Assembly (NCBI RefSeq): GCF_000764305.2
Contig: NW_025939125.1
Span: 62,001-126,000 of the forward strand
DNA: 64,000 nt
DNA from: Hyalella azteca
Taxonomy: Eukaryota > Arthropoda > Malacostraca > Amphipoda > Hyalellidae
Reading direction: 5' to 3'
Below, piece after piece: positions 1,661 to 48,400 of the stretch. Each line of letters starts with the position of its first letter. Positions within the stretch are counted from its first letter, which is position 1. The translations under genes were made by a program, and so were the position numbers. The notes beneath the pieces are model-generated. The model did no database searches. It was not told where the DNA came from and saw nothing but the letters and a program-made list of their open reading frames with translations.

Positions 1661-2606
1661 CTAGACTGCATCAGCTTTTTCAATATTTGCGGTCGATGTT
1701 CCGTTGATAGTCGTGTAGGAATTTTTCCTCTTTATCCCTGGAGAATCCAGCTGATGTTCACCCTCCGTAACCTCTTCCGTTTCACCAATATCGTTCAAGG
1801 GCGACAATTCTTCTACGCTGATAGCGCTCAATTTATCATGCAGACTTTTCATGCTGGAATGAGCACCATTTGCCGTTTTCTTGTTTTCTGGTGTTTTGCC
1901 GTTTTCCAAGTATGACTCCGACGGCGAATATGAACCACTAAAACCGAGAGGGGAACATGGCATGGAAGTGAAATGTCCGTTTCCAGAGTCGTAAGACAAT
2001 GGAGTGGGAGGTGAAGCCGTCTTCAATGAACTTTGAGATCCTCGTCTTGGAATATCAACTGGAGGAGTCGCCAGAGGCAAAACTTGGCCTTCCAGTACAA
2101 GCGATTCATCTCCTACAGACGATGATCCACGCTCAGGGATAGCTGAGAGTCGACCAGATCTTGGGTAAGCTAACCCTCCACTCATAGCATCGCTGTCACG
2201 CCGTGTGGAAGTATCTTTCTGCGATCCTTTCCTGCTTTTGGTGGACACATTGTTAGTAGGAACTGTAGGCTTGGAGGTGGTGCTGGGCGTCTCCCAAGGG
2301 AACATGTACCCTTTGTGGCGTCGCCACGAAGGTACCAACTTGGACAAAACTTCGAGGTATGCATCGCGGTATTGCCGGTTCATGAGCACATATATGAGGA
2401 CGTTGACACAGTACTGCACCCAGTACAGGATGTGCACGATGAGGAAGCGGTTCGGGTCCTTAACCGTAGGGTCCTTTGCGTGCACCACCATCACAGGTAC
2501 GCTGCACACCATAATCAGCACGAATATGATGAAGATTGTGCGTGCAACACGCATATCTCTTCGGCTGGTGGACAGTTTCTGACTCAGGTTCGAAGAGCGG
2601 CGGGCG
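1661..2606 (-). CDS. GPCR exon 9: TM6, TM7 and long cytoplasmic tail, stop codon
   Basis: 946 nt including the stop, residues 369-683. The acceptor is TTTTCATTTTCAG|CGCC. RRDMRVARTIFIIFVLIMV opens TM6; CSVP (403-406) stands where CWxP is usual. TM7 reads HILYWVQYCVNVLIYVLM, with NVLIY (437-441) in place of NPxxY, then NRQYRDAY begins the membrane-parallel helix 8. The remaining ~225 residues are Ser/Thr/Pro-rich, include SPSESY-like runs, and end in KADAV. A C-terminal valine of this kind could be a PDZ ligand, but the -2 position is Asp, so this is only a possibility. Confidence 0.92.
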
Positions 2607-5600
2607 CTGAAAATGAAAATAGTTTGAGCAACTCGGATTTATTTATTTTCTATTAAATGGCAATTGATAATTGGGATTATATTGATCAATTACTCTACTC
2701 AGATTAACAGAGAGCATATGTATGCTGTCAGCATATGAATGCTGATAATGCTTTTATCAGCATATGAATGCTGATAAAAGAGCATTTCGGTTATTAAAAG
2801 TTTAACCATGATTATCAATTTAGCAAATTTGGGTTACGATCGAGCCGGCAAGTGATAAACAGGGCAACTTGAAGTTTAATAGGTTCCCGAAGCTCGCCAG
2901 AGTGCGGAACAAAAGCTTATTCGAACACTATAAATATATAAACTTTCATATACTAGAGGACACACATTAATGTACAGGGACCACTATTACATGCATTGTC
3001 ATGCCTCATGCAGCACCTTCAATGTAAATGGCAGAGTAATTTGTACAACCATAGATACTACGGACACGTTCACCAACAATGCACTAATGTTATTTTCTAC
3101 GAAAGTCCATAAATGAAACTAGAATTATTGTAAGAGTTACATGATTCGCTGATAAAATCTGTGAGTGATGATTAAGAGGGATGATGAGTGAATCCATGGA
3201 AAAATATACAACAATTCAAACAAGTGCAGCACGTCACACAGTAAATCGTAGTTGTTACGTACAATTTCAGCTCTGATCAGGTTTAGTGTTAATTCATCAG
3301 ATAATGTTATTTAAGCTTGAAAAATTCAATCAAATATTTGTTTTCACGATATGATAGCCCTGAAAGAGATGAAATTATGAAGATAGACCACAAAAGAACC
3401 GAAAATTTAACGACCAGAAGTAATTTCTTAATAAATATGCAAAAAAAGACATCAACGTCTTATTCAAGGAAAACAAATCAGCTCGAAGAAAAAATGCAGA
3501 AAAAGTCGTGTTAATAAAACGTACGAAAAGGAAGGAAACATTTAGGTTAATGCGGACGAAAAAATACAGTTGCACATCAATTAATCTAATTCTTGTGTTG
3601 CCTGAAGATACAATTGAAAAAGAATGTTCTTTTACACCGTATACACTGAAAAATTAGTGGATCATATTATCAAAATAACGATACTTTCTGCACGTAGCAC
3701 TGATACACCCTTATTCTGGGCTAAGAAGTGTCAATATACCGCAAAAAAGGGGACAAAAAGTGCATCGCTACTTGGACAAAGTCACCTCATTTCTCTGAGT
3801 GTAACGTAGTTTTATAAGGAGTATCGCGGAAAGTAGAACACAGGACGGTTCCATGCAAAAAAATAGATACTAAAACATAGGCGCATTCTAAGGAATAAAG
3901 TTTTTTATTTATACTCTGCACATTAAATACAGAAAAGTTACATCTATTGTATGAAAAGCTTTGAAATGTGAGCACTGCAATTGTAATGCAATGAAGAGGA
4001 AAACATTTAATATCCCACGTTAATGAAATAAAAAGTTTAAAATCTTCTCATCTACTTCATTAATAATGATTTTAAAGCAACGAGTTACATTGAAGCCAAA
4101 AGCTCTAAAGAATTATAATTAACGTCCAATGAACCTATTAGAACTATACATCGATAGGCTGACTTATAGAATATGAGAAACTTTTTGAAGTTCACAGACC
4201 GTTTGGAAACTAAATGCAAGCCTGAGATGCGTCCACTGTGGAAAAAAAATAACAAGAAAGTAACTATAGATAAGAGGGCAAATATCAATTCCAATACCAA
4301 TATTTTATCATAAAGAGTGCATTAATTTACAATCAAATCACGCAACAAGCAAGTAAAAAACGAAATTACCTTATCTTATTTACCTTGATCATTCATTCAA
4401 ACAAATATTCGGTAAAATAACTAAATAAATAGCAATTAATAAAAATATAAAATAATTAAGAGGTTTCCATGACATATTTTCCAAAATAAATAAAAGCGTT
4501 TGTTTGTAACGCGAGGTTTTAGATGGCTTTGTGGAATTCTTCCGATCGAAATCGGTCAATGAAAATTATTACTTATATGTAAGCTTTATTCACTAAAAGT
4601 AAATAAAACAACTTGCAATAATGAAATAAACCAAATAAATTTATCGAAAGTGCGTGAATGGTTAGGAAAGCGTATGAATTTAAAAATGTGCATGAGGCAG
4701 ACCTCCAATAGTTGCACAGTCTGATTGATCATTGGATTTCCTGCACTTTGAATGGGCTATATAATGGGGTTCATTATATAAACAATAGCTCTTCAAAATA
4801 AAATTGTTTAAACTTTAATGAGGCATTACCGTAACTCACGAAGCTACTGCAATCTTGTTTCTGTAACCATCAAGTTGGGTTTTTTCGAAAAGCGGGGGCG
4901 TTAGTTGGCGAACGATTTAAAATTTAATAAAAACAGCGGTCTTCGAGGGCATCTTTTTGAAAACCAATTAGATAGTTAAATTTACAAAGAAATAAATTAA
5001 TAATCTCCATTTATTAAAATCAATACCGTAATCTATGTGAAAATTTCAAACAATGAATCGCATGAAGAATGAAAAATGAAATGAATTTTTTTAAATTATA
5101 TAAATAAGTTGTGAAAAATTTAATAAAATATAAAAACGAACAATAAAATGAACAATTTCACTCACAATGTAGCCCTAAAGCTTTTATCCGAAACCATTCG
5201 CTTGAGGCCCTTGAAGCTCGCGGATGACAGCCTACGGGGGCTCTTCAAGGGGCCGTCCTCCGCAGGGTCTTCCTTTTCCTCCTGCTGGGGTTCAGGATCC
5301 TGCTCGACCCCAGTGGCTGCTCAATAACATAAAAAACATATTATTATAATAATATAATATAGTAGATTCAGCTTGAAATGAGCCAGGCTGGCCTGTCAAC
5401 GATAAGTTATAATATAATAAAGTGGCAACAGCTTAGATTAGGAAAGGTTGGCCTTTCGCCACGCCTGTACAATACACAATAAAAATTTCTGGTGAGTAAG
5501 GCCTTCGCAAAATAAATTTCTGGAGAGCAAGGGCTACGAATACATTATTTGTCGACAATGCCTGCTTAGAATAAATTCATGCTCAACAATGGCCATAAAA

Positions 5601-8600
5601 CTAAATTTTTTGTTGGCAAGGCCAGCTAAGAATAATTTTCTAGTCATCGAGGGCGTTGCAAAATACATTTTTGGCAAGCAAGGCCTGCACAACATAAATT
5701 ACGGGAGATGAATGCTGACCAATTTTGGTGAGTAATATGACTGGTAAACACAAATTTTTATTGAACAATATAAATTTGCCGTGAATAGGAGCAGTACGGA
5801 TAAAATTATTTCTATTTTTTTATAACACGAGGAATATGAAATGAAATTTAATCGTTTGAAAGAATATGAACAGAAAAAAATACAAATCAGTCTTCATGAT
5901 ATTGCAAAATTTTCTTATTTCTTTCTAATGACAGTTGTAGAAGTGAATTTTTCATAACCATTAATTCGGACGGTAGTAAATCTTCTTCCCTTTTTCGTTC
6001 TAAGTTGAACGAAATTAGCAACACTAATTTGTCATAATTAAATTAGAAAATATATGCAAAACATCATCACAGTAAAAACGGGACAAAATATGTCACATTT
6101 AATTAATGATTAGGAAATAATCCCAAATTATTAATATAAAAATTGGCTTACCTTTATCCGGCGGTGGCGCCCGCTTCTTCGCGGTAGCTCGCGACACGCG
6201 ACGAGAGCTCAGCTTCACCTGCAATGCCAACACTGAGATGTATAATTTTATGGTGAAAGAAGTCGTCTGCGCAAACTTTGCTACAAATATTTCATCCAAA
6301 AACTCAAAATTTCAATTGTGTAACCAGTTCTTTAATATGGGCGCAAATGGCACTAAACTGTTTGGTTAACGTCAGCCACGTGAACAACCAATAAGGGAGC
6401 CTAGATTTGCACTAAAAATGGTCAACCATGTAATTGGTCATTCATTACGATAATTAAATAATAAGTTATCGTAACTAATTAAATCAAATAAAATAGTAAA
6501 AGATTACATACTTTCCAAAAATGAGCTAACTAAGGCAAAATATAACATGCAATTGTTTCGTAAACGGATTTACCAAGCAATATTTAATGTAAGGCAGGTC
6601 AGTGCGTAAAAGAAGTTCGAAGCCTCAAATACATTGCAGCCGTACGGAAAAATGAGAATTTCTAATAAAAATTTAATGCTAATTATTTCGAAATAATTAA
6701 ATATTGCCAACTATTTCCGCAATATTATAACTATTATTTCTTCATCTTTTTCCTTTTGGCAGAATAGAAACATGCATGGACGAAAAAGAACATATAGTCT
6801 AGAAAATGTCTATATGTCACCGAGGCAATATTCTACAGCGAGAAATCACCGAGGCAATATTCTACAGCGAGAAATCACCGAGGCAATATTCTACAGCGAG
6901 AAATCACCGAGGCAATATTCTACAGCGAGCGACAAGCAATAAAATAATATTATTATGATAACTAATTATCACATATAAATGAAAGCCAGCAAAATAAAAT
7001 CTACAAGGACGTTACAGGCACAAAATATAACAATAAATATAACAATGAATAGAAGCAGGGTTGGGGTAAAACAAAACGACCGAACAAAAACATTCGGACA
7101 CGCATGACATGTCAATAAGTACTAAATATGGGCGCTTCAAATAAGGCACACTGCAGGGAAAAGGTATTGGAAAATACGCGCTAATTTATGGAAAACATGA
7201 CGGTTTAATAATAAATATGGATCGAGTCAAGGCATACTATACAGAGAATGGCTTGTTCATTCATATAAAAAAGTTGAGGCACACAGGACGGGGTAAACGT
7301 AAATGTGGTCCGGTCGAAGCACACTCAATTTCAGCGCATTATTCGATTTCATCCTGATCGGTTCAATCAAGTTTAATCGAAACACTTGTACAAAAATACA
7401 TGCAATTTTAACTGGACTAGCATGCCAATTTAAATAAATGGCAACAGAATTGCACAATTGTCTAGCGCACTATATAAACAGCGTCATAATTTGCACCGAA
7501 GAATGTACAAAAATAATGCGACAAAATGTATATACAACTGAAATTCAGAAGTCTACACAAATTATAGAAAATTTAGCAAGCTGCTGAAAAATAAAATACA
7601 ATAAAAGGGTACACATGGCTAAAAACATAGATTATTTATATTACGGACGGATGGGAAGCAACGTAAACATAAACAACGAACAGCTGATTGAAGTCTACTT
7701 GAAGACGAAACTGGCATAATATGGGAGATAAAATATAAATTGCGGAACACACAGGACGTAAGCACATGAAATAGGATAAATAATTGTATAATTGTTAAAA
7801 AACTTCAAATTGTTACGCTAGATCATGCCCCATGCAACGAATATTGCAACATCAGAATACCGCCGCCGGTTGAGCCTTGCTGGCGCCGAAGCTGGAGTTC
7901 CGTTTCTGCAACCTGCGGATGCGCTTGCGACACCTCCGCATCAGCTTAAAGTGTCATCATGAAATTATTCGAAACATATCATTTATTTACTAAGTCTAGA
8001 TTTATGAGATGATAGAGTAACCGTTTTCCTACGATAAATGAGCTGTCGTCAACGCCTATCGTATTCTACGCCAATACCCTTGTCCCGATTAAGAAAAAAG
8101 GTTTATAAGATTCAGAGTATTCTACTTTAATGTTAAAGATGGATATCTATGACAATCTTTTTGTTTTGGAGTAAAATTGTTCAATATTTCAGTGTGAAGG
8201 ACACAACATTCGGTTGTCAGATGCAGTCATTACAATTTTTGCAGCGTCAAATCAATGAATGTTTCGTTGATCACCCACTTTGACAAAATAATTTCTATTT
8301 CATTAAAAGGCAAACGTGATGGTTGTTTGAATTTAGGTTGAAAATCGCATCAGCTTTTCATTTACATCGGTGTTTAGGGACAAGTTAACCCTCTACCGCC
8401 GTATGTCACTCTCCGGAAACATAAATATCAACTTAAATTATACGTAAACTATTGAGTGCAGCAACCTGAGGACGTTTATACGCAACAGATAACATTTTAA
8501 AGTTGTCGTACGTGGAGGCAACCATCAGTGCAAGTCATTTTGCGCTCACTAGAACATATCGTTTTTGGGAAGTAGACTTGGGACAATATTGCTCCGGTTA

Positions 8601-11600
8601 CTCTGATATGACTTAGTCATATCAGGCGGGAGAGGATTAAGAAGTCTCCTTATGTTATTATCATCAAATTCCATAATTTAAGACCCTGTGAAATTCATGA
8701 GTTGTTCTTGTATCCTCCGATAATCACACCTTAGTCCAACATTTAGTGACTATGTTACATGTTTATGTAACGTAAGGGCTACAAAAAATACAAATGAATA
8801 CACAGTTATTTTATTGTGAACATAAAAAAAGAAAGAAAACTTTCTTCCGTCATTACAACAATCACTGTTTCATTTCACCATTAGCCAGACGTGCCCTAAT
8901 TTAGCACACCGAAGATCTTAAATCACAATCAATCGCATCCAAAAGGCGATAAAAGTATTAAAATCACTTGTTTGCTTGAATCGCAAGTTAACCAGGAATT
9001 TAAAAGCAAAGAAAATACCACAAAAATTCACCATATCTTTAATTATTATTAAAGATATGGTGAATTTAATTTAATATATATGGTGAATAATAATATCGAC
9101 GCAACGTTCAGTGGTGGACGGCCATTCGACCCTAGGCTATTCTACCTCGTGTCTGGGGGGTGTGGAGCTCAAAATATTCAAAGCAGAAAGGGACGCCTGT
9201 CGGAGACCACCACTGCCGTGCTTCGAATGGACTATCATGATTCCTTCCCTGAAGAACGTAGCCGACAACAAATCTTGACTGTAACGTTATCAGCCGCACG
9301 CCACCGGACAGATCACATCCATTGAATTAGATCAATCAGCTTACAGGAAAATAAGCCTGGCGTCGTATGGCCCAGCGTCGTCAGCCAACACGCGAAAAAC
9401 TTTTACACCACCCGGACGGAACGCGCCGGAGCCGTCCGTATCTGTCCCGTGTGTCGAATCAGCCCACGGTCGAACGGCCACGCGTCATACGACGATAAAT
9501 TTTGGAACAGAACTATGCTATCTGGAACCTAACCCCAATGCTGTGAGCTAAAAGTGACGGTCTGGTGGTGCACGGCAGGATGCATGCAGTTCCACTGGCG
9601 CCCTGGGCTGGTTGGTCACAGTCCGTTGTCCGCAAGTTACAGTTCGAGCTAAAGTCAGGGTATGAAGTGATGATTCGATGCAGCGTTCAGTGGTGGACAA
9701 CCATTATTCTCTGGGCTGTTCGCTTCAGAATAAGGTGGCGTGAAGCTCCTAATATTTAAAGCAAGATGATGTAATGGGCTGGTTACTAACGGCAAGGTTA
9801 ATCCGCGGCTGATTGGTTGTCATCCGGAAATATGCTAGGCGTTCCTGTTAGGGCTGATTGGTGCACAAATTTGGTGGTGCACGGCTGCGTACCCTCTTGC
9901 TTTAGCAGGAGATTCTTGGATTAAAGTTATTATTTCGGAGCCTATATGTAAATACACAAGTTAACAACTTTAATAATAGTGAAAAAATGTCGAAAACAAC
10001 AAAATAAAAAAAAATCTCCGAAACAACGTACATAGCAAGGAAAGGCAGAATCCAAATAAATTGAGAAAATAATTTTAATTACGGCAATCGGGAAGCCTGC
10101 CGAAGACCACCACTGCCCTGGATGTAATGGACTCTCATGACTCCTGCCCTCCGGAACGTAGCCTTCAACACTTCTGGAAAATCATTTATTTGTGTTTCTA
10201 GGACTGAACTTTTCTGAACAGAATTTTGTGGTTTGAACTGACGATGGAGCTGGACTCCGAAACGTTTTCTCTTATAAAGATATGGTGAATTTTTGTGGTA
10301 TTTTCTTTGCTTTTAAATTCCTTGTTAAAGGCGATAAAATAACAAAATCTGCAATGAAAAAAAAATACAAATATAAATGACAAATGGATGAAGATAACGA
10401 ATACGAATCTGCAAAGGACTCACCATGATGAATTTGAATACTTAATAGGTTGACTATGAATGAATCACAATCCGCAAATGGCTCACCATGATGAATATGA
10501 ATACTTAAAAGGCTGACTATGTATGAACGAATCCGAATACGCAAAAGGCTCACCATGACAAATATGAAGACGTAGAGTATGACGATGATGAAGATAGGAG
10601 CGATGGCTTCAATTCGTATAATCCATTTCCGAGCCACCAAAGATGCCCTGTCGTTGCCCATGTCGCACTCCATCGTCAGGTTGTTGTAGCTGTAATGCCC
10701 GAATTTCTGCGAAAAAAATGAAAATAATGACAACCCACTATTTGTTTAGGTGAATTTCTAATCATATTTCCGATTATTCAACATATTCGTAATTGGTGTT
10801 AATAAATTCTTTGGCCTTTGCCCTAAATAAATTAATAATAAATTAATTAAATTAAATAATAAATTCTTTGGCCTTTGGCCTAAATGAACACAATAATTAA
10901 TGATTTTTACAATCCAATATACATATGTACGTACTTTGGAGGAGACTTTTCAAATCGTAATTAAGCTAATAAATTTATAATGAAAGCTCTGAAGAATATT
11001 TTCCATTTTGAGTGAAACATGTAGAACATTGGATGTTTTTTTCGGAAGGAATTGTTTGACCTTTCATAAAACTGTCTTGAATAATAAAAATTGGATACGT
11101 AATATATGTGCGTTTAATTGGCTCCATTTGACTTTTGTGAGAGTTCTTTATTTTTCAAACTGTTTTTTCAGAAGTCTTTTTGCCAACGTAATTAAGATTC
11201 TCAAAAAATATCACCTTTGCAACTAGAAAACGAAAAATGTTATTCGGAAAAGCTCACATTACATGATCTTAACTACAAAAATGTATTTTCTCAATTTCAT
11301 ATTCAATGATACGAATTCAAAGGAAGTAAATTTAAGTTGATTGTAGCAAAATTACTTTATCAAAATGACATAAGCGAAAGCTTTTCGGGATTACGAAACG
11401 CGGTGACGCAATAAAATTTAACGCTAGACTTCGGTTATGTCGCGCTGGCGTCAGCATATCTCCCGCGTGATGGAGCTCATGACTTTATATGACGTTTATG
11501 ACTAGATATGACCGTCATGACTTTGAAACCATAGCACAGATATGACCTCTTACCTGCTCATTGACGGAAATTCGTCCGGTTATTGCACACTTATTACCAA

Positions 11601-14600
11601 CTGAGATTTAATTGAATTCGACTGCGAGGCATACGAGATGTCATAGAGGGGGCAAATCAATTGAATATTGATTTGCCCCGGAATATTTTGATATTTTATT
11701 TGCCCCGATATTTGGAATATTTTATTTCACTCTTCCTAATCAAAAGGACCTAAATATTCCAGGAAATATTACAAGGATCTTTTTGGTCAGTTTACTCACT
11801 GCAAAGACAAGCGAAAGAGAGGAAATTATGTTTTATATACTCATCCATAACACTTAATTATAATTTTTTATAAAATAATGCATATCCCATCACAAAGCTT
11901 CCCGTAACTCACCTGAATGGCAGGCCATCCGAAGTAAGGTCATCACCCCAACCACAGTGGAAATCTATCCTAATATTCACATAATAGCGATAGAAAAATA
12001 ATAAATAGCTCGTCCGACATACTGCGTAATACTCAAATAATATTCACAGAAAAATTATTACTCTTACTCACCCTATTACTCACCTAAAAAATATTACTAT
12101 TACTAATGTAAATTACTCACCCCCATTGCGGTGGGTATCTTGAGGGCAAATGAGTACACCCAGATAATTGCGATGTAGACACCCACCACGACGGGGGTGT
12201 TGATTTTCCTGTACAGGTTCATGCAGGACACCGCCACAGCTCTGCACAGCGCAACACAGAACCAGAATGATGAATAATAATTAACTCAGAAAAAATCAGA
12301 GTGGGATTTTTTCATGATGGCGATGACATTTTTGACGTTTTGTGGGTCTTCCTGAACCTGTTTATCCCAGAAAAAGTGCTAGAGTCAAGTGCTGAAAGTG
12401 TATCAATTTAAAGACAAAATGACCCATTAAAATTTTGCTTGTAACTACTGGAAAATACGAACAGTAACTATCACAAATATATATTTTAATACAAACATAT
12501 CTTAATCACACAATCTGTATGAGTGTAATCCTGAATATTATGATTATGCCATACAATTTCTAAGCTGGAATAAAACTGTTATTCATCTAACTTTGTTGAT
12601 GATCTGAAACCTGTGGTTCATTTGCTTCCTTAATTCATCTAAATATTTAGATGGATTCGGAGCACAATTAATTGTATCAAATAATTTATCTCGAAATTGT
12701 TTGCATAGGATTAATTACAGTAATTAATAAATTAATAATCACTTAACTACTGTTCAAATATCAAGAGTTCGTTTAGTATTCCCACACTGTGAAGGTAATA
12801 TCAATTTCAAATATTATATTTTTAGGTTATAAACGTCCTGGCAACTGTTAGTAATTCATAATCGTAGAACCATAAATGCAAGATAATAGTAATTCATAGA
12901 TAAAAATGCAGAATTTTCACTGACATTTCTTCACTATAAAATCATTTCTGAGGAAAATATGCACCAACTTGCCTCATGAGCGCGATGGCGAGGATGGTCT
13001 GGAGTTCGATCTGCGTGAGGGAATACCGCATCACCGCGAAGTAGTTACATGCGCTGTCCGATAACAGGCTTGTGTCTGTGAGCATATAAACAAAATATAT
13101 TCTAAAACAGCAATGAAAGTTATATAAATTAAAAATATATTCATATAATTTTACTATAGATGTTTTTATTACTTAACCTTCACAGCTAAGTAAAGTAGGC
13201 GCTTGTCTACATGCAAATAAAAAGTTCAAATAGATGGTAAAATAGCAATGAAAGAAGAAGACGTTTTAGTGATATTATACTAACGACATTACACATGAGT
13301 CACCAATCAGCAGAAAATACAATAAACTCGCCTCACAGAAATGTACCAACAGAGTAAATTAGAATATAAATGTACTCACTGAAGAGCATGAGGCAGCTGT
13401 ACTGTACTCACTGAAGAGCATGAGGCAGCTGTACTGTACTCACTGAAGAGCATGAGCTGTACTGTACTCACTAAAGAGCATGAGGTAGCTGTACTGTACT
13501 CACTAAAGAGCATGAGGCAGCTGTACCTGTCTCTTATACACATCTAGATGTGTATAAGAGACAGCAGCTGTACTGTACTCACTGAAGAGCATGAGCTGTA
13601 CTGTACTCACTGAAGAGCATGAGGTAGCTGTACTGTACTCACTGAAGAGCATGAGGTAGCTGTACTGTACCTGTCTCTTATACACATCTAGATGTGTATA
13701 AGAGACAGGCTGTACTGTGCTCACTAAAGAGCATGAGGCAGCTGTACTGTACCTGTCTCTTATACACATCTAGATGTGTATAAGAGACAGGTACTGTGCT
13801 CACTAAAGAGCATGAGGCAGCTGTACTGTACTCACTGAAGAGCATGAGCTGTAGCTGTACTGCTGTCTCTTATACACATCTAGATGTGTATAAGAGACAG
13901 GTACTGTACTCACTAAAGAGCATGAGGCAGCTGTACTGTACTCACTGAAGAGCATGAGGCAGCTGTACTGTACTCACTGAAGAGCATGAGGCAGCTGTAC
14001 TGTACTTACTAAAGAGCATGAGGCAGCTGTACTGTACTCACTGAAGAGCATGAGCTGTACTGTACTCACTGAAGAGCATGAGGCAGCTGTACTGTACTCA
14101 CTGAAGAGCATGAGGCAGCTGTACTGTACTCACTGAAGAGCATGAGGTAGCTGTACTGAGCACCAGACAGCGGCAGCACAGACACGCAGAAGAGCAGTTC
14201 CACGACGGCGAGGTTGACGACGAAGGCGGTGGCTGTGGTGCGCAGACTGCGGCTCATCGGGAGCGCTACTATCGTCAGCAGGTTGCCTGCGATCAGTAAA
14301 CATCGTCAGCAGGTTGTCAGCAACCAGTAAATATCGTCAGTAGGTTGTAATCGACCAGTAAATATCGTCAGCAGGAAGCTTGCAACCCCAAAATATCGCC
14401 TGTAACTTGCGTGTGGTCACCACAAGCCACGTCTAAGTTTTGTTAGGAAATGCTTTTTGCCCAATTTGTCAGCAACTTCTTTATTCGTCAAGACTTAGTG
14501 AAATTATCAATTAATCTAATTGGCCATTGTCAAGCCCACACATTGTTTAAATAAAACGTTCACGATACTTTTCAATATTAAAGCGTGACTCAAAAAATTA

Positions 14601-15875
14601 TTTTCTGTGTGAAAAGTGGTCGCTCTTTCATAATTGTAGCCTCTTCTTACAATTTTCTTAGTTTAGTTTCTTACAATTCAAATGGTCGATAGAAGTTTAC
14701 AATAAGACAATAAAAATTTAAGTAATTAATCCCAAGAAATGGTATCAATATATAATAAAGTTTCAGTGTTGCCGAACACAAACACATTAAAGTAAGAAAG
14801 ATGCTCGAGTTTCCCGTGAAATGGGCCGTTCGTTTGTTCAGTATTTCTAGACGTCCATCAAGGATGTTTGCGAACAAGTTTTACGCCAAAACAAATCACG
14901 AATCTGCTTGTTTTCCTCAAAACAAAGACCAGCAAATGGGAGATAGCTTATAGTGACAGTAAAGCCGTATTCTCGTGAACAAAGTCTTCTCACAAGCCCA
15001 TATCTTCTTTGGCCAGGTCGAAGCTTTTCTTGCAGGAAAAGAAACGGAATATTGTAGGACTTAAAAAAAACTGCTCACAGGGGCATAAATATTCGGGTCT
15101 CACCAGGTCCGATTATGCACCTAATTAATTTGTCATGAATAATATAATAATGCGGAGGAAAATTAGTAATAAGAATTCAGAAAATACTGGTCTTCATAAT
15201 GTTAATTATGGAGTTTTGCTGCTAATTATGATATTGGATGTACTATCATGATCATAAAAAATTGCTATAAGTAAATTTGCGTTCTAATTTGGTCGTAAAG
15301 AACGCGACAGAGTCAAAGACGGGTGCAGAAAAGAACTAACAGCAGCCAAACACCATACATGATTTTGGGTTCAAGTTTCAATAATGTATCACTGGTGTTG
15401 AAATTGCGCCAAATTTGCAGGGAAAGGCGAATAAAAATGAAATCAAAATGTATCAAAGGATTCACCAATCTGAATATTGAAAAATTATAAAGATGACAAA
15501 TCTAAAATAAATACATATTTTGTCAAGGCTCTTCAGAATAGTGTGTCGCCTTTAGCGTTATTAATATGACAAGCAAAGCTATGAAGACATCATGTACTAA
15601 CCGACGGCACCAAGAATTGCGATGATGAAGGCACATGCGGCAGTGAAGCCGAGCATGTGGTAGGGAAACTGCGTGCCCATCACTGCCTCTATCATTCCGT
15701 CATCGTCCACATCGGTAGCGTTGATAAGGGACACAGTAGCGTTGAAACTTTTATTAAATTCCGTTGTTTCGCCGCCATCACCGGATGCCCCCGCCTCTTG
15801 TGAGGCGGAAGGGTAGGACTCGAACACCGGTCCGCTCTCGTACAAGTAACTCATAGCTTTTGTAATGTCTGCCAT
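1661..15875 (-). CDS. Class A (rhodopsin-like) GPCR, Moody/Tre1-like, complete, 9 coding exons
   Basis: Joining 15875-15602, 14286-14134, 13075-12973, 12241-12121, 10706-10554, 7944-7861, 6218-6152, 5316-5166 and 2606-1661 gives 2052 nt, 683 residues plus stop, with every junction in phase. Residues 1-70 are extracellular with N-glycosylation sequons at N41, N45 and N52. TM1 is about 71-95 (GN at 92-93), TM2 111-133, TM3 154-176 (C152 before it), TM4 196-213 (W204, P213). Loop 2 has C231 and sequon N226. TM5 is 246-268 (P254), intracellular loop 3 about 269-386, TM6 391-411, TM7 421-443 and the cytoplasmic tail 444-683. The GPCR fold is clear. The closest subfamily I can name from the TM2 and NRQYRDAY segments is Moody/Tre1-type orphan receptors, known in flies for glial barrier and germ-cell migration roles; this is a judgement by eye. 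A melatonin- or GPR84-like receptor is the alternative. Confidence 0.9.
2703..2785. repeat. Palindromic hairpin cluster
   Basis: AGCATATG...ATGCTGA motifs occur three times. The inner part CTTTTATCAGCAT, a four-base spacer, then ATGCTGATAAAAG forms a perfect 13-bp stem. Lies in GPCR intron 8; function unknown. Confidence 0.6.
3642..3803. mobile_element. Inverted-repeat element family A (MITE-like), copy 1
   Basis: About 162 bp. The right end, reverse-complemented, reads TACACTCAGAGAAATGAGG then TTTGTCCAAGTAGC; the left end TACACTGAAAAATTAGTGG is an imperfect mirror. An interior TGATACACCC corresponds to the family core GGGCGTATCA. It has no coding capacity, as expected of a non-autonomous element. 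Confidence 0.6.
5166..5316 (-). CDS. GPCR exon 8: intracellular loop 3, acidic then basic Ser-rich
   Basis: 151 nt, phase 1 to 2, residues 319-368 plus two bases. The acceptor is TTATTGAGCAG|CC and the donor ACATT|GTGAGT. It encodes an acidic stretch (EQDPEPQQEEKEDPAEDG) followed by a basic Ser-rich stretch (SPRRLSSASFKGLKR). GC content is far above the flanking introns. Confidence 0.85.
5317..6151 (-). other. GPCR intron 7
   Basis: Intron made largely of a degenerate 31-bp tandem repeat (5480-5745) plus AT-rich sequence. No other feature recognised. Confidence 0.7.
5480..5745. repeat. Degenerate ~31-bp tandem repeat, about 9 copies
   Basis: A motif like AAATTTCTGGTGAGCAAGGC recurs every 28-33 bases (near 5491, 5524, 5555, 5583, 5613, 5643, 5674, 5703 and 5728) with many substitutions, indicating an old array. 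Confidence 0.7.
6152..6218 (-). CDS. GPCR exon 7: intracellular loop 3
   Basis: 67 nt, phase 0 to 1, residues 297-318 (VKLSSRRVSRATAKKRAPPPDK). The acceptor TTGGCATTGCAG|GTG and donor AAAG|GTAAGC are both good. It is basic, with Ser residues in RxxS-like settings that could be kinase sites in the cytoplasmic loop (inference). Confidence 0.8.
6219..7860 (-). other. GPCR intron 6
   Basis: AT-rich intron holding a young 29-bp minisatellite (6817-6932). Nothing else recognised. Confidence 0.65.
6817..6932. repeat. 29-bp minisatellite, 4 perfect copies
   Basis: Four identical units beginning TCACCGAGGCAATATTCTAC at 6817, 6846, 6875 and 6904. The lack of divergence points to recent expansion, so length is probably variable between individuals. 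Confidence 0.93.
7861..7944 (-). CDS. GPCR exon 6: start of intracellular loop 3
   Basis: 84 nt, phase 0 to 0, residues 269-296, beginning LMRRCRKRIRRLQKR. This is the highly basic segment expected just after TM5, where G proteins contact the receptor. The acceptor (CTTTAAG|CTG) and donor (GCGGCG|GTATTC) are both weak, but the GC-rich stretch, amino-acid content and phase fit. Being a multiple of three with phase 0 on both sides, it could be skipped without a frameshift. Confidence 0.72.
7945..10553 (-). other. GPCR intron 5
   Basis: Contains the exon-5 junction repeats (10378-10560) and a 1.3-kb region bounded by 48-bp inverted repeats (8994-10323). The stretch from 7945 to about 8990 is AT-rich with nothing recognised. 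Confidence 0.65.
8994..10323. mobile_element. 1.33-kb region bounded by 48-bp inverted repeats
   Basis: 8994-9040 (AGGAATTTAAAAGCAAAGAA and on) is repeated in inverse orientation at 10276-10323 almost perfectly, with weaker similarity extending outward. Inside, GTTCAGTGGTGGAC occurs at about 9107 and 9683, and AGACCACCACTGCC, its inverse, at about 9203 and 10107. It lacks a recognisable transposase. This is either a decayed non-autonomous DNA element or a nest of several. Confidence 0.55.
10378..10560. repeat. Tandem repeat of GPCR exon-5 end plus its splice donor
   Basis: A 63-67-bp unit recurs starting near 10411, 10474 and 10541 (GCAAA followed by CTCACCATGA), with a fourth very degenerate partial copy before it. 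Read on the minus strand each carries the end of exon 5 and a donor (ATG|GTGAGC or GTGAGT). Divergence between copies is moderate, so this array is older than the exon-2 one. Confidence 0.8.
10554..10706 (-). CDS. GPCR exon 5: extracellular loop 2 and TM5
   Basis: 153 nt, phase 0 to 0, residues 218-268. The acceptor is TTTTTTTCGCAG|AAA and the donor GTCATG|GTGAGC. It encodes the second extracellular loop with sequon N226-L-T and C231, which is expected to bond with C152, and TM5 with P254. The donor and the last ~20 exon bases recur twice in the intron at 67- and 63-bp spacing. The first position is chosen because the others shift the frame relative to exon 6. Confidence 0.9.
10707..12120 (-). 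other. GPCR intron 4
   Basis: AT-rich intron. Near exon 4 it holds two extra GGTGAGTAA strings (minus strand) at 12064-12072 and 12076-12084. Nothing else recognised. Confidence 0.65.
12121..12241 (-). CDS. GPCR exon 4: end of TM3, loop 2 and TM4
   Basis: 121 nt, phase 2 to 0, residues 177-217. The acceptor is GCTGTGCAG|AGC and the donor ATGGGG|GTGAGT. It carries Arg177 in the position of the DRY arginine, in the context M-R-A, and TM4 with W204 (VGVYIAIIWVYSFALKIPTA) and P213. Two more GGTGAGTAA strings lie 37 and 49 bases further into the intron, so this donor is also repeated, although without exon sequence. Confidence 0.88.
12242..12972 (-). other. GPCR intron 3 (GC-AG)
   Basis: AT-rich intron that starts with GCAAGT and ends GCTGTGCAG on the minus strand. 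No other feature recognised. Confidence 0.65.
12973..13075 (-). CDS. GPCR exon 3: TM3
   Basis: 103 nt, phase 1 to 2, residues 143-176 plus two bases of codon 177. It follows CTCACAG| and carries the conserved loop-1/TM3 cysteine (C152), followed by a Ser/Thr-poor hydrophobic helix ending ILAIALM. Its end is best read as ATGAG|GCAAGT, a GC donor in the strong consensus context of GC-AG introns. This choice joins AG+A to give Arg177 and keeps the frame through exon 4. A GT four bases further on would break the phase. Confidence 0.85.
13527..13564. other. Nextera mate-pair junction adapter, copy 1 (artefact)
   Basis: A perfect 38-bp palindrome made of the 19-bp Tn5 mosaic end CTGTCTCTTATACACATCT followed by its reverse complement. 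This is the known circularisation junction of Nextera mate-pair libraries, not genomic DNA. Confidence 0.97.
13671..13708. other. Nextera mate-pair junction adapter, copy 2 (artefact)
   Basis: Second perfect copy of the same 38-bp double mosaic end, inside the 32-bp array. Confidence 0.97.
13753..13790. other. Nextera mate-pair junction adapter, copy 3 (artefact)
   Basis: Third perfect copy of the 38-bp double mosaic end; flanking repeat units are cut at arbitrary points, as expected for unrelated fragment ends. Confidence 0.97.
13863..13900. other. Nextera mate-pair junction adapter, copy 4 (artefact)
   Basis: Fourth perfect copy of the 38-bp double mosaic end, joined to truncated repeat units on both sides. 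Confidence 0.97.
14134..14286 (-). CDS. GPCR exon 2: end of TM1, loop 1, TM2
   Basis: 153 nt encoding residues 92-142 (phase 1 to 1). The acceptor is GATCGCAG|GCAACC and the donor CTCTTCA|GTGAGT. The core is LRTTATAFVVNLAVVELLF, where the usual TM2 Asp (position 2.50) is Glu. Both edges of this exon lie inside tandem repeats: the last 22 exon bases plus 10 intron bases form the 32-bp unit repeated below 14134, and the acceptor with the first exon bases forms a 31-bp unit repeated above 14286. Reading on past the donor hits a stop at 14066-14068, and extensions of 32 or 64 nt shift the frame, so only the outermost donor preserves the protein. Confidence 0.9.
14271..14400. repeat. 31-bp tandem repeat containing GPCR exon-2 start and 3' splice site, 4-5 copies
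   Basis: ATCGTCAGCAGGTTG starts at 14271 (inside exon 2) and recurs at 14302, 14333 and 14364, with a degenerate unit at 14395: an exact 31-bp period. The first unit holds the true acceptor; two of the others have lost the AG at that position. Confidence 0.88.
14401..15601 (-). other. GPCR intron 1, remainder
   Basis: AT-rich, no feature recognised beyond the 31-bp repeats adjoining exon 2. Confidence 0.6.
15602..15875 (-). CDS. GPCR exon 1: start codon, extracellular N-terminus and most of TM1
   Basis: Coding exon of 274 nt (residues 1-91 plus one base). The ATG sits in a favourable context (ATCAATGG), and an in-frame TAA lies 21 bases upstream, which fixes this as the first possible Met. 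The N-terminal domain is acidic and Ser/Gly-rich, with three N-glycosylation sequons at residues 41-54 and no obvious cleavable signal peptide. The donor reads GTCG|GTTAGT, phase 1, and joins exon 2 to give GAVGNLLTIV at the end of TM1. No repeat flanks this donor, unlike those of exons 2 and 5. A 5' non-coding exon may exist upstream but I could not identify one. Confidence 0.88.
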
Positions 15876-45403: not shown

Positions 45404-48400
45404 CTGCACATCGAAGCACATATTAATTCTTCATGGCATAGAGTCGATAACAAGCATAGGGTGCAATAACTATACATTAAAATAGTTGTTATTGAACATG
45501 GCTCTTTGAAAGAAAAATCCGCAGAAAATAGCCATAGTTTTTATTTTAAATCAAGAGGATTTTCAGTAAGCAGACAATTCCCTTTAAACTTTTCTTTGAA
45601 AAAAAAAAATATTGCTACCCTGCCAACTTATCACGCGTTACTTAATGACTAAAACTCACCTCAATTTCTCACTGCACCATGGTGTCGTTTATATCAGGAT
45701 CCCTTTGTTTAATGTTATTCCTACCCAAGTTGCCAACATATGGTTCCGTATACCTACCTTTCTTGGGCTTGGGGGACGGAGGACGATGAAGGGAGCGCAT
45801 CAGCGCGACTATGGACCAGAAACTCCTTAACTCGACAATAATGCCATATAAGATGTCAACAACTTACCTTAATCTCCCACTGCTCCATGGTGTCACATTA
45901 ATGACATATATAATGCCCTATAAAATGACCAAAACTCGCCTCAATCTCCCACTGCACCATGGTGTCACATTAATGCCATATATAATGCCCTATAAAATGA
46001 CCAAAACTCACCTCAATCTCCCACTGCACCATGGTGTCGTCTATATCAGGATCCCCGTGTACACAGAGCAGCAAGAACTTCTCCCGCTGTTCATAATCAC
46101 AATGGTTGGCGTCTAATACCTGCGGCACACACACAACCATGCAGACCGTCATTACAAGGTGCCTTCCATAGGCAGTTAATGGATCTTAAACATCAATGAT
46201 AAACCAAGGCATGAATCATCCGAAAAAAAACTGTTAAAGAGAGTGGCCAGAGTTGTATAGTATTGAGGGAAGGAAATTTTGAACTCAAAAAATAAAATTA
46301 GTGATAATAATAAAAAAAATTATGATGCCAGTTACGGAGACTAAATTTAGGCTGAGGGAAATTATAGATTAAAAACGGTTCGATGGATTTTGATTTGAAA
46401 CTTGTTATATATTAATATTTGAAGTACGAAAAATTGCTGTAAAATGTAGGCAAATTCACTCGCTTCAAAGATATAAGGATAATAGATAAATGACCTGGAA
46501 TTTATGAAAACGCATATGCATCAGGGAATCAACTCAGAACACATCAACAGCGTTCTGGAAACGTCATCAGTAATAATCGCTTAATAATTCAAGATATTAA
46601 TCAAGGATGATGTGGTCAGAAATTGATCAATTTGTGATTACAAAAGGTTAGCGAGAACCAGAAATAGAGAAATAATAAATCACTAGCTAATGAACAATTA
46701 TTAAATTTGGATTTACCTAGATTCAGGGACTTCTGTTATAATTCCATAATTTCATGAGGTTAACTATGAATAAATTCATCAAGTATCGAGAAGAAATTAT
46801 GAAGCCAACATTTCGCTGGACGATTCACGATAATGTAACTTACATGTTAAGATACAATAATATATATCAATGCACACACATAACAATGTATATATATTGA
46901 AAAGTTCCTTTTAATATTCAACATAATTCAATAGATTAGTACGAGAGAGACAAGGTGGAGGATCAGAGGAATAACCCATAAGAAGAAGAGGAAAATTAAT
47001 CAGTGGGGTGGATGGGAACAACATGCTAATCGGAAAAACGTGCCAAACAGGAAAGGAAGAAGTGATAAGTTGATAACAACATAATCAATGAATTGATATC
47101 AATATAAGTGATGAATTGATATCAACATAAGTGATGAATTGATATAAACATAAGTAATGAAATGATGTCAACATAAGTGATGAATTGATGTCAACATAAG
47201 TGATGAATTGATGTCAACATAAGTGATGAATTGATGTCAACATAAGTGATGAATTGATATCAACATAAGTAATTAATTGATATCAACATAAGTTATGAAA
47301 GGATATCAACATAAGTTATGAAAGGATATCAACATAAATGATGATTAGACGTCAACAGAAGACCCAAAAAATTTCCCAGTAGAACATGATATTTAGGCCT
47401 ACCTGGACAGGAATTCACCCGTTACAGTAAAGATGATTGCAGGTAAAACAAAATCAGACCAAAATCACCAAATACTACAATAGGTTCGAATTTTACTTCT
47501 GAATATCAAACCTGAACTTACCAACAGGACAATTTCAGTGACAAAAATAAAAAATGAAATTTTTAGAATTCCGACTATGAATATGAGGCAAGCGTTATTA
47601 TAGCAAGAGAGTGAGGTGATGAAATGAGATCGAAAACATTTGTATGATCAAGTAAATAAAATCTATGAATATGAATAAGCTACGAATAATATTTCCCAGA
47701 CATAAGTGATATGAAAGCAGGTTAATCAGATTGGCGAAGCGATCGGGTCATTGCACGAACGTTATTACTTCGGACACGGAATTATGATGCGTGATCAGAC
47801 GGACTAGCATAGATGAACAAACTTTAAAACAAATGCGTTAAAAGGCTATTAAAAAATGAGATGAACTACATGATAACATGGAGATGAATTTGAGGTCCGT
47901 TAAGTCATTCGCAAATATGCTTATGGAAAATCAATACAAGAACCCAGAACATAAATACAAAATAAAACAGCTGTCACAAAAATATTCTCGTGTTTCAAAC
48001 AACCAGATGAAGCAGAAAAGATGAAGTTGTTGTCAGTCAAGTCACTCGCAAATCAACTTGGCAAGTCACCACATTAGCCGAGTTTTTATTCTAGAAGCGA
48101 AGTCGATCGTTGAAGCGAATTAATGATCGTTTAACGTAAAGAAAATTAACAATGACAGAAAAGGTTGAACAATCAGTCAAGGTGCTTGTAGTTTAATTTC
48201 AGAAACTGAGACAAAACATATTGAGCGTCGGAGATTGATGCTTTAGTTCAAGTAATACATTGAGTCGCTAATTTAATAGAAATTGAACAAAAAAAAAAAA
48301 AACACGGCGCATTATTAAATTTTAAGCCTGGTTCAAAAGGTCCGTAAGCACAATAAAAAAATTCCACGCACGGCGAAGGTTGCAGGGCAACTTTCCCGGT

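Follow-up and report, generated by a model that had tools for sequence, protein, structure and literature searches.

A tandem array lies across the end of coding exon 2 and the adjoining 5′ splice site of a moody-like receptor gene of Hyalella azteca. In the reading that we favor with good confidence, the array is an ordinary splice-site-spanning minisatellite, probably near neutral in effect, in which the order of the units was scrambled by the assembly and the outermost donor makes the receptor. All coordinates refer to the 64-kb window, by which we mean the whole stretch of DNA that was analyzed, and the features are collected in Table 1.

Table 1. Coordinates of features of the receptor gene, its tandem repeats and the embedded adapters
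Feature	Position	Strand	Basis
moody-like GPCR gene, nine coding exons	1661-15875	-	exact protein rebuild; Pfam 7tm_1
31/63-bp repeat over exon 5 donor, GTGAGC from 10553	10396-10568	-	TRF
Coding exon 3, own donor GC (ATGAG/GCAAGT)	12973-13075	-	model rebuilding RefSeq protein
Minisatellite (about 32 bp) as assembled, with 19 donor-like copies, over the 5′ splice site and the end of exon 2	13371-14158	-	TRF, donor list, block/unit parse
Adapter-free intron-side block, 5 donor copies, continuing into unique intron sequence	13371-13526	-	
38-bp mate-pair junction adapter, contaminant	13527-13564	no strand	exact match
38-bp mate-pair junction adapter, contaminant	13671-13708	no strand	exact match
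38-bp mate-pair junction adapter, contaminant	13753-13790	no strand	exact match
38-bp mate-pair junction adapter, contaminant	13863-13900	no strand	exact match
Adapter-free block adjoining exon 2, with the real donor (intron from 14133) as the first of 8 donor copies	13901-14158	-	
In-frame TGA, reached from any donor after the third	14066-14068	-	
Coding exon 2, 153 nt, last base 14134	14134-14286	-	exact P0011 rebuild
31-bp repeat over exon 2 acceptor	14270-14398	-	TRF

The receptor was assigned to the moody/Tre1-like rhodopsin class, as it carries a 7tm_1 domain (Pfam, 53.3 bits against a cut-off of 30.5) and many of its protein matches are named moody or trapped in endoderm-1. Exons in the window matched the RefSeq protein P0011, "G-protein coupled receptor moody isoform X2 [Hyalella azteca]," and a nine-exon model that used the outermost donor rebuilt 683 of its 683 residues, the RefSeq model itself having been built on this same scaffold and possibly leaning on homology rather than RNA.

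TRF reported the array as 788 bp long with a 32-bp period, and 19 donor-like copies (16 GTGAGT, 2 GTGAGC, and 1 GTAAGT) were found on its minus strand. The initial annotation had proposed that the repeated unit spans the end of exon 2 and its donor, which both the donor list and the exon rebuild confirmed; the unit consists of 23 exon and 9 intron bases, and the 22 plus 10 given earlier is another register, the choice between the two being arbitrary. The units run head to tail, fall within the 10- to 100-bp range of minisatellites, and have diverged: a unit parser, which read 18 of the 19 units and left out the 19th at an adapter edge, separated 8 core types, distinguished from one another by a 4-bp deletion and by substitutions. 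The array crosses the real splice site, as located by the exact P0011 rebuild, and its outer blocks adjoin unique exon and unique intron sequence. Longer repeats, with periods of 82 and 124 bp, were also reported by TRF, and the 124-bp period is internal to the exon-side block.

A genome search revealed no second haplotype copy of the locus, its 4 matches being the locus itself, two within its own array, and contig C1008. The last was 74% alike and was rejected as a second copy since it is a separate 30-bp minisatellite with no receptor exons among the listed open reading frames. The unit of that minisatellite (positions 1302 to 1810 of the fetched stretch; 74% over 168 query bases) contains the donor-like sequence TTCAGTGAGTA, and the resemblance to the receptor array is probably due to chance.

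Embedded in the receptor array, and overlooked by the initial annotation, is a 38-bp palindrome, CTGTCTCTTATACACATCTAGATGTGTATAAGAGACAG, which occurs there four times in exact form. The palindrome consists of two Tn5 mosaic ends of 19 bp, placed back to back, and a half-site search that allowed 3 mismatches returned 8 matches, all without mismatch, against a mean of 0.01 in shuffled sequence. We take the 38-mer to be the one that goes by the name of the Nextera mate-pair adapter. All four adapters of the window sit in this single array and split it, from the exon side, into blocks of 258, 72, 44, 106, and 156 bp with 8, 2, 1, 3, and 5 donors, respectively, such that 6 of the 19 donors lie within 13527-13900 (the inner three blocks) and 13 in the two outer blocks. 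The array keeps one orientation through all five blocks, and each adapter is flanked by array on both sides. One paper prints an identical 38-mer as a circularization adapter (PMC7357533), and another describes mate-pair transposomes that put on junction adapters (PMC5053417). Among the papers searched, the former was the only one that the 38-mer itself matched, and a peptide translated from the adapter matched none.

The same 38-mer was present in 5585 copies in the 519-Mb assembly, and its reversed control was present in none. At the genome rate, 0.0085 adapters would be expected in 788 bp, and the Poisson probability of at least four is 2 × 10⁻¹⁰, a value that is too small owing to adapter clustering yet shows a nonrandom spread. 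Clustering was assessed in 20 fetched stretches that held 26 adapters and were taken from the head of the list of adapter positions rather than drawn at random. There, 13 of the 26 adapters had an array to one or both sides, compared to 4.8 at random and a maximum of 11 in 2000 draws, and the other 13 had none on either side. TRF coverage was 0.37 to 0.38 within 100 bp of a sampled adapter, 0.26 at 101 to 200 bp, and 0.09 to 0.12 beyond. Direct 12-mers common to both sides were found at 3 of the 26 adapters and inverted ones at 0. With all four palindromes exact and 5585 scattered copies far above chance, the 38-mer was classed as a contaminant. It resembles the mate-pair junction adapter left in assemblies in being the same exact 38-bp palindrome, in numbering 5585 copies, and in gathering at tandem arrays, and no difference between the two was named. 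In two sampled stretches (L001 and L004), the adapter was followed directly by one N and a long, even tandem array (19 bp × 41 and 30 bp × 14), a combination that we regard as a sign of gap filling.

We conclude that the segment 13527-13900 is an assembly artifact and that the number and order of the units in the array are unreliable, because four adapters lie inside the array and the 38-mer is both genome-wide and clustered at arrays. The inner three blocks are fragments that the adapter links. The four adapters are spaced 106, 44, and 72 bp apart in order of position, closer than a single circle per read would allow, and joins through the palindrome must therefore have occurred. Untrimmed mate-pair junction adapters would have been built into the assembly, probably because a gap filler can link any two reads through the palindrome that they have in common. 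The outer blocks may be mis-sized too, given the internal 124-bp period that a looping assembler could make. The assembled letters nonetheless make a real minisatellite in the animal very likely, because the outer blocks are adapter free, the units are diverged, and the flanks are unique. Its count is another matter: the "about 19 tandem copies" of the initial annotation are true of the assembled file, which contains 19 donors, and are not shown for the animal, as four adapters lie inside.

The minisatellite would have arisen where exon 2 meets intron 2. The probable cause is slippage between an AGTACA in the exon and another immediately past the donor. Ahead of the unit, the exon reads CAGTACAG, and in the intron the donor is followed by GAGTACA; slippage from one AGTACA to the other would give a first duplication of exactly this unit. 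The original, outermost donor would then continue to make the receptor, and the downstream donor copies would act as intronic decoys that leave with the intron at splicing. On the simplest view, the inner copies are lost in this way and matter little. Stray use of an inner donor would be expected to yield an early-stop transcript of the kind removed by nonsense-mediated decay.

Several claims about donor choice held up in the rebuild. Only the outermost donor keeps the protein, as the 683-residue rebuild uses the donor at 14133 and donors 2 to 8 lead to early stops; the second and third donors add 32 and 64 nt as proposed, and the predicted TGA at 14066-14068 is present. With donor 2 the reading frame ends after 167 residues, with donor 3 after 173, and with each of donors 4 to 8 after 164, placing the stops at codons 165 to 174 with 6 or 7 junctions still downstream; the rebuild covered donors up to the eighth, and each of donors 9 to 19 would keep the same TGA in the exon. 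By the usual rule, a transcript with an early stop ahead of downstream junctions is a target of nonsense-mediated decay. Computed U1 pairing ranged from −5.2 to −4.6 kcal/mol and was identical for the 16 GTGAGT donors and nearly so for the others, and thus strength does not distinguish the outermost donor. Any favoring of the outermost donor would have to come from its position beside the exon body or from exon-bound factors.

Related proteins were consistent with use of the outermost donor. Among the 42 of 44 aligned proteins that reached the exon 2-3 junction, 32, P0011 included, had the same length there, 9 had one residue more, and 1 had one fewer; none of the 42 carried a longer insert. 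The read-through peptide was absent from 47 fetched proteins. A search with the 79-residue read-through translation returned 5 relatives at 70 to 86% identity, all without the read-through peptide, a weak result given that the search was limited by length and shared words. Moreover, two genomic relatives of exon 2 (P0007 and P0008) continue without the read-through peptide, and hence the array was not seen there.

Two further tandem repeats were found over splice sites of the same gene. In the repeat over the exon 2 acceptor, CAG was lost in three upstream copies and kept only in the exon-proximal working copy, whereas nearly all donor copies of the array are intact; three acceptor copies are too few to argue selection. 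In the repeat over the exon 5 donor, further GTGAGC/GTGAGT copies lie at 10486 and 10423, and RefSeq uses the first. A repeat at the acceptor of the last exon, which the protein had led us to suspect, was not there. Altogether, 3 of the 16 junctions of the receptor gene fall within TRF arrays compared to 1.14 expected, which is no enrichment of splice sites in tandem repeats, as a proportion of 0.15 of 9143 circular shifts along the window reached 3 in a test that was run after the three repeat-borne junctions had been seen. The count therefore fits the heavy tandem repeat load of the window, which is 7%.

One alternative, raised by the initial annotation, is a true ladder of about 19 donors, the length of which sets the nonproductive share and so tunes the receptor level. 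The near-identity of the donors in letters and U1 pairing fits such a ladder, as nothing in the letters by themselves marks out the first, and so do the early stops from all of donors 2 to 8 with 6 to 7 junctions downstream; the competition between nearby donors is regulated in other animals (PMC5585400). Against it stand the adapters inside the array, the agreement of the RefSeq protein and 31 relatives with the length of the outermost junction, the absence of the read-through peptide from the fetched proteins, and the two genomic exon 2 relatives in which the array was not seen. A real ladder of 19 near-identical donors is not supported with four adapters within it, and we regard the proposal as improbable; dosage tuning by repeat length has found no support so far and appears unlikely on the assembled sequence. 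More improbable still is an extended form in which a long, length-variable array raises the share of inner-donor, early-stop transcripts with its length and so sets receptor output, the AG loss at the acceptor being a mark of selection. If that were true, the acceptor loss would reflect selection against decoys on one side of the exon, with tolerance of donor decoys on the other.

The opposite possibility is that the whole array is an artifact, the animal having one donor around which a gap filler looped. The built-in adapters and the longer common repeats of two blocks (periods 82 and 124 bp) would accord with looping, but a one-unit loop cannot make 8 core unit types with substitutions and a 4-bp deletion. 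Both outer blocks, moreover, pass from diverged units into unique sequence, and adapter-free repeats of similar unit size cover two further splice sites of this receptor gene, and we therefore give this reading little credence. A variant of the favored minisatellite rather than its opposite is that the array of the animal exceeds 1 kb, longer than assembled, such that both ends of circularized fragments lay in it. We consider this variant possible but less likely than not. All four adapters have same-orientation array on both sides, and mate-pair protocols remove short fragments (those below 1500 bp in PMC5053417), as a longer array would predict. Short circles can escape removal, however; a single circle cannot yield adapters 44 to 106 bp apart, so that palindrome joins are needed anyway; and direct 12-mers common to both sides accompanied few of the sampled adapters. 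We conclude that a minisatellite of ordinary kind, disordered by the assembly, best accounts for the array.

Two papers (PMC2812944 and PMC4974935) already describe minisatellites that lie over exon-intron borders and duplications that cross a splice site, and the receptor array is a further case of such border minisatellites, plus a contaminated assembly. Internal tandem repeats at exon-intron boundaries of human segmental-duplication genes share units of about 30 bp, the border position, and possible effects on splicing; RNA supports changed splicing in many of the human cases and copy numbers vary (PMC2812944), whereas the receptor array comes from a contaminated assembly. Border-crossing tandem duplication (the Rogers model; potato RdRp, PMC4974935) likewise copies a splice signal. 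Unlike in the potato case, the receptor copies are donor only, with no acceptor, and stay in the old intron, and no new intron was seen. Among the matches listed by literature searches, none of which was aimed at moody in Hyalella by name, no paper concerned this locus.

The main value of the locus is as a warning on repeat counts in this assembly. A repeat count or order near any copy of the 38-mer is suspect, there are 5585 such places, and that many leftover adapters are enough to affect many gene models and repeat counts. The genuine part is a donor with many copies next to the original and a protein that is intact all the same. Should long reads and RNA bear the array out, it could offer a test of how the spliceosome chooses among near-identical donors.

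Two smaller observations concern other donors in the window. In the region 12060-12125, the exon 4 donor GTGAGT is followed by two further GTGAGT within about 60 bases, where TRF reported no array. In addition, a 72-bp repeat at 45838-46038 is a candidate carrier of a donor.
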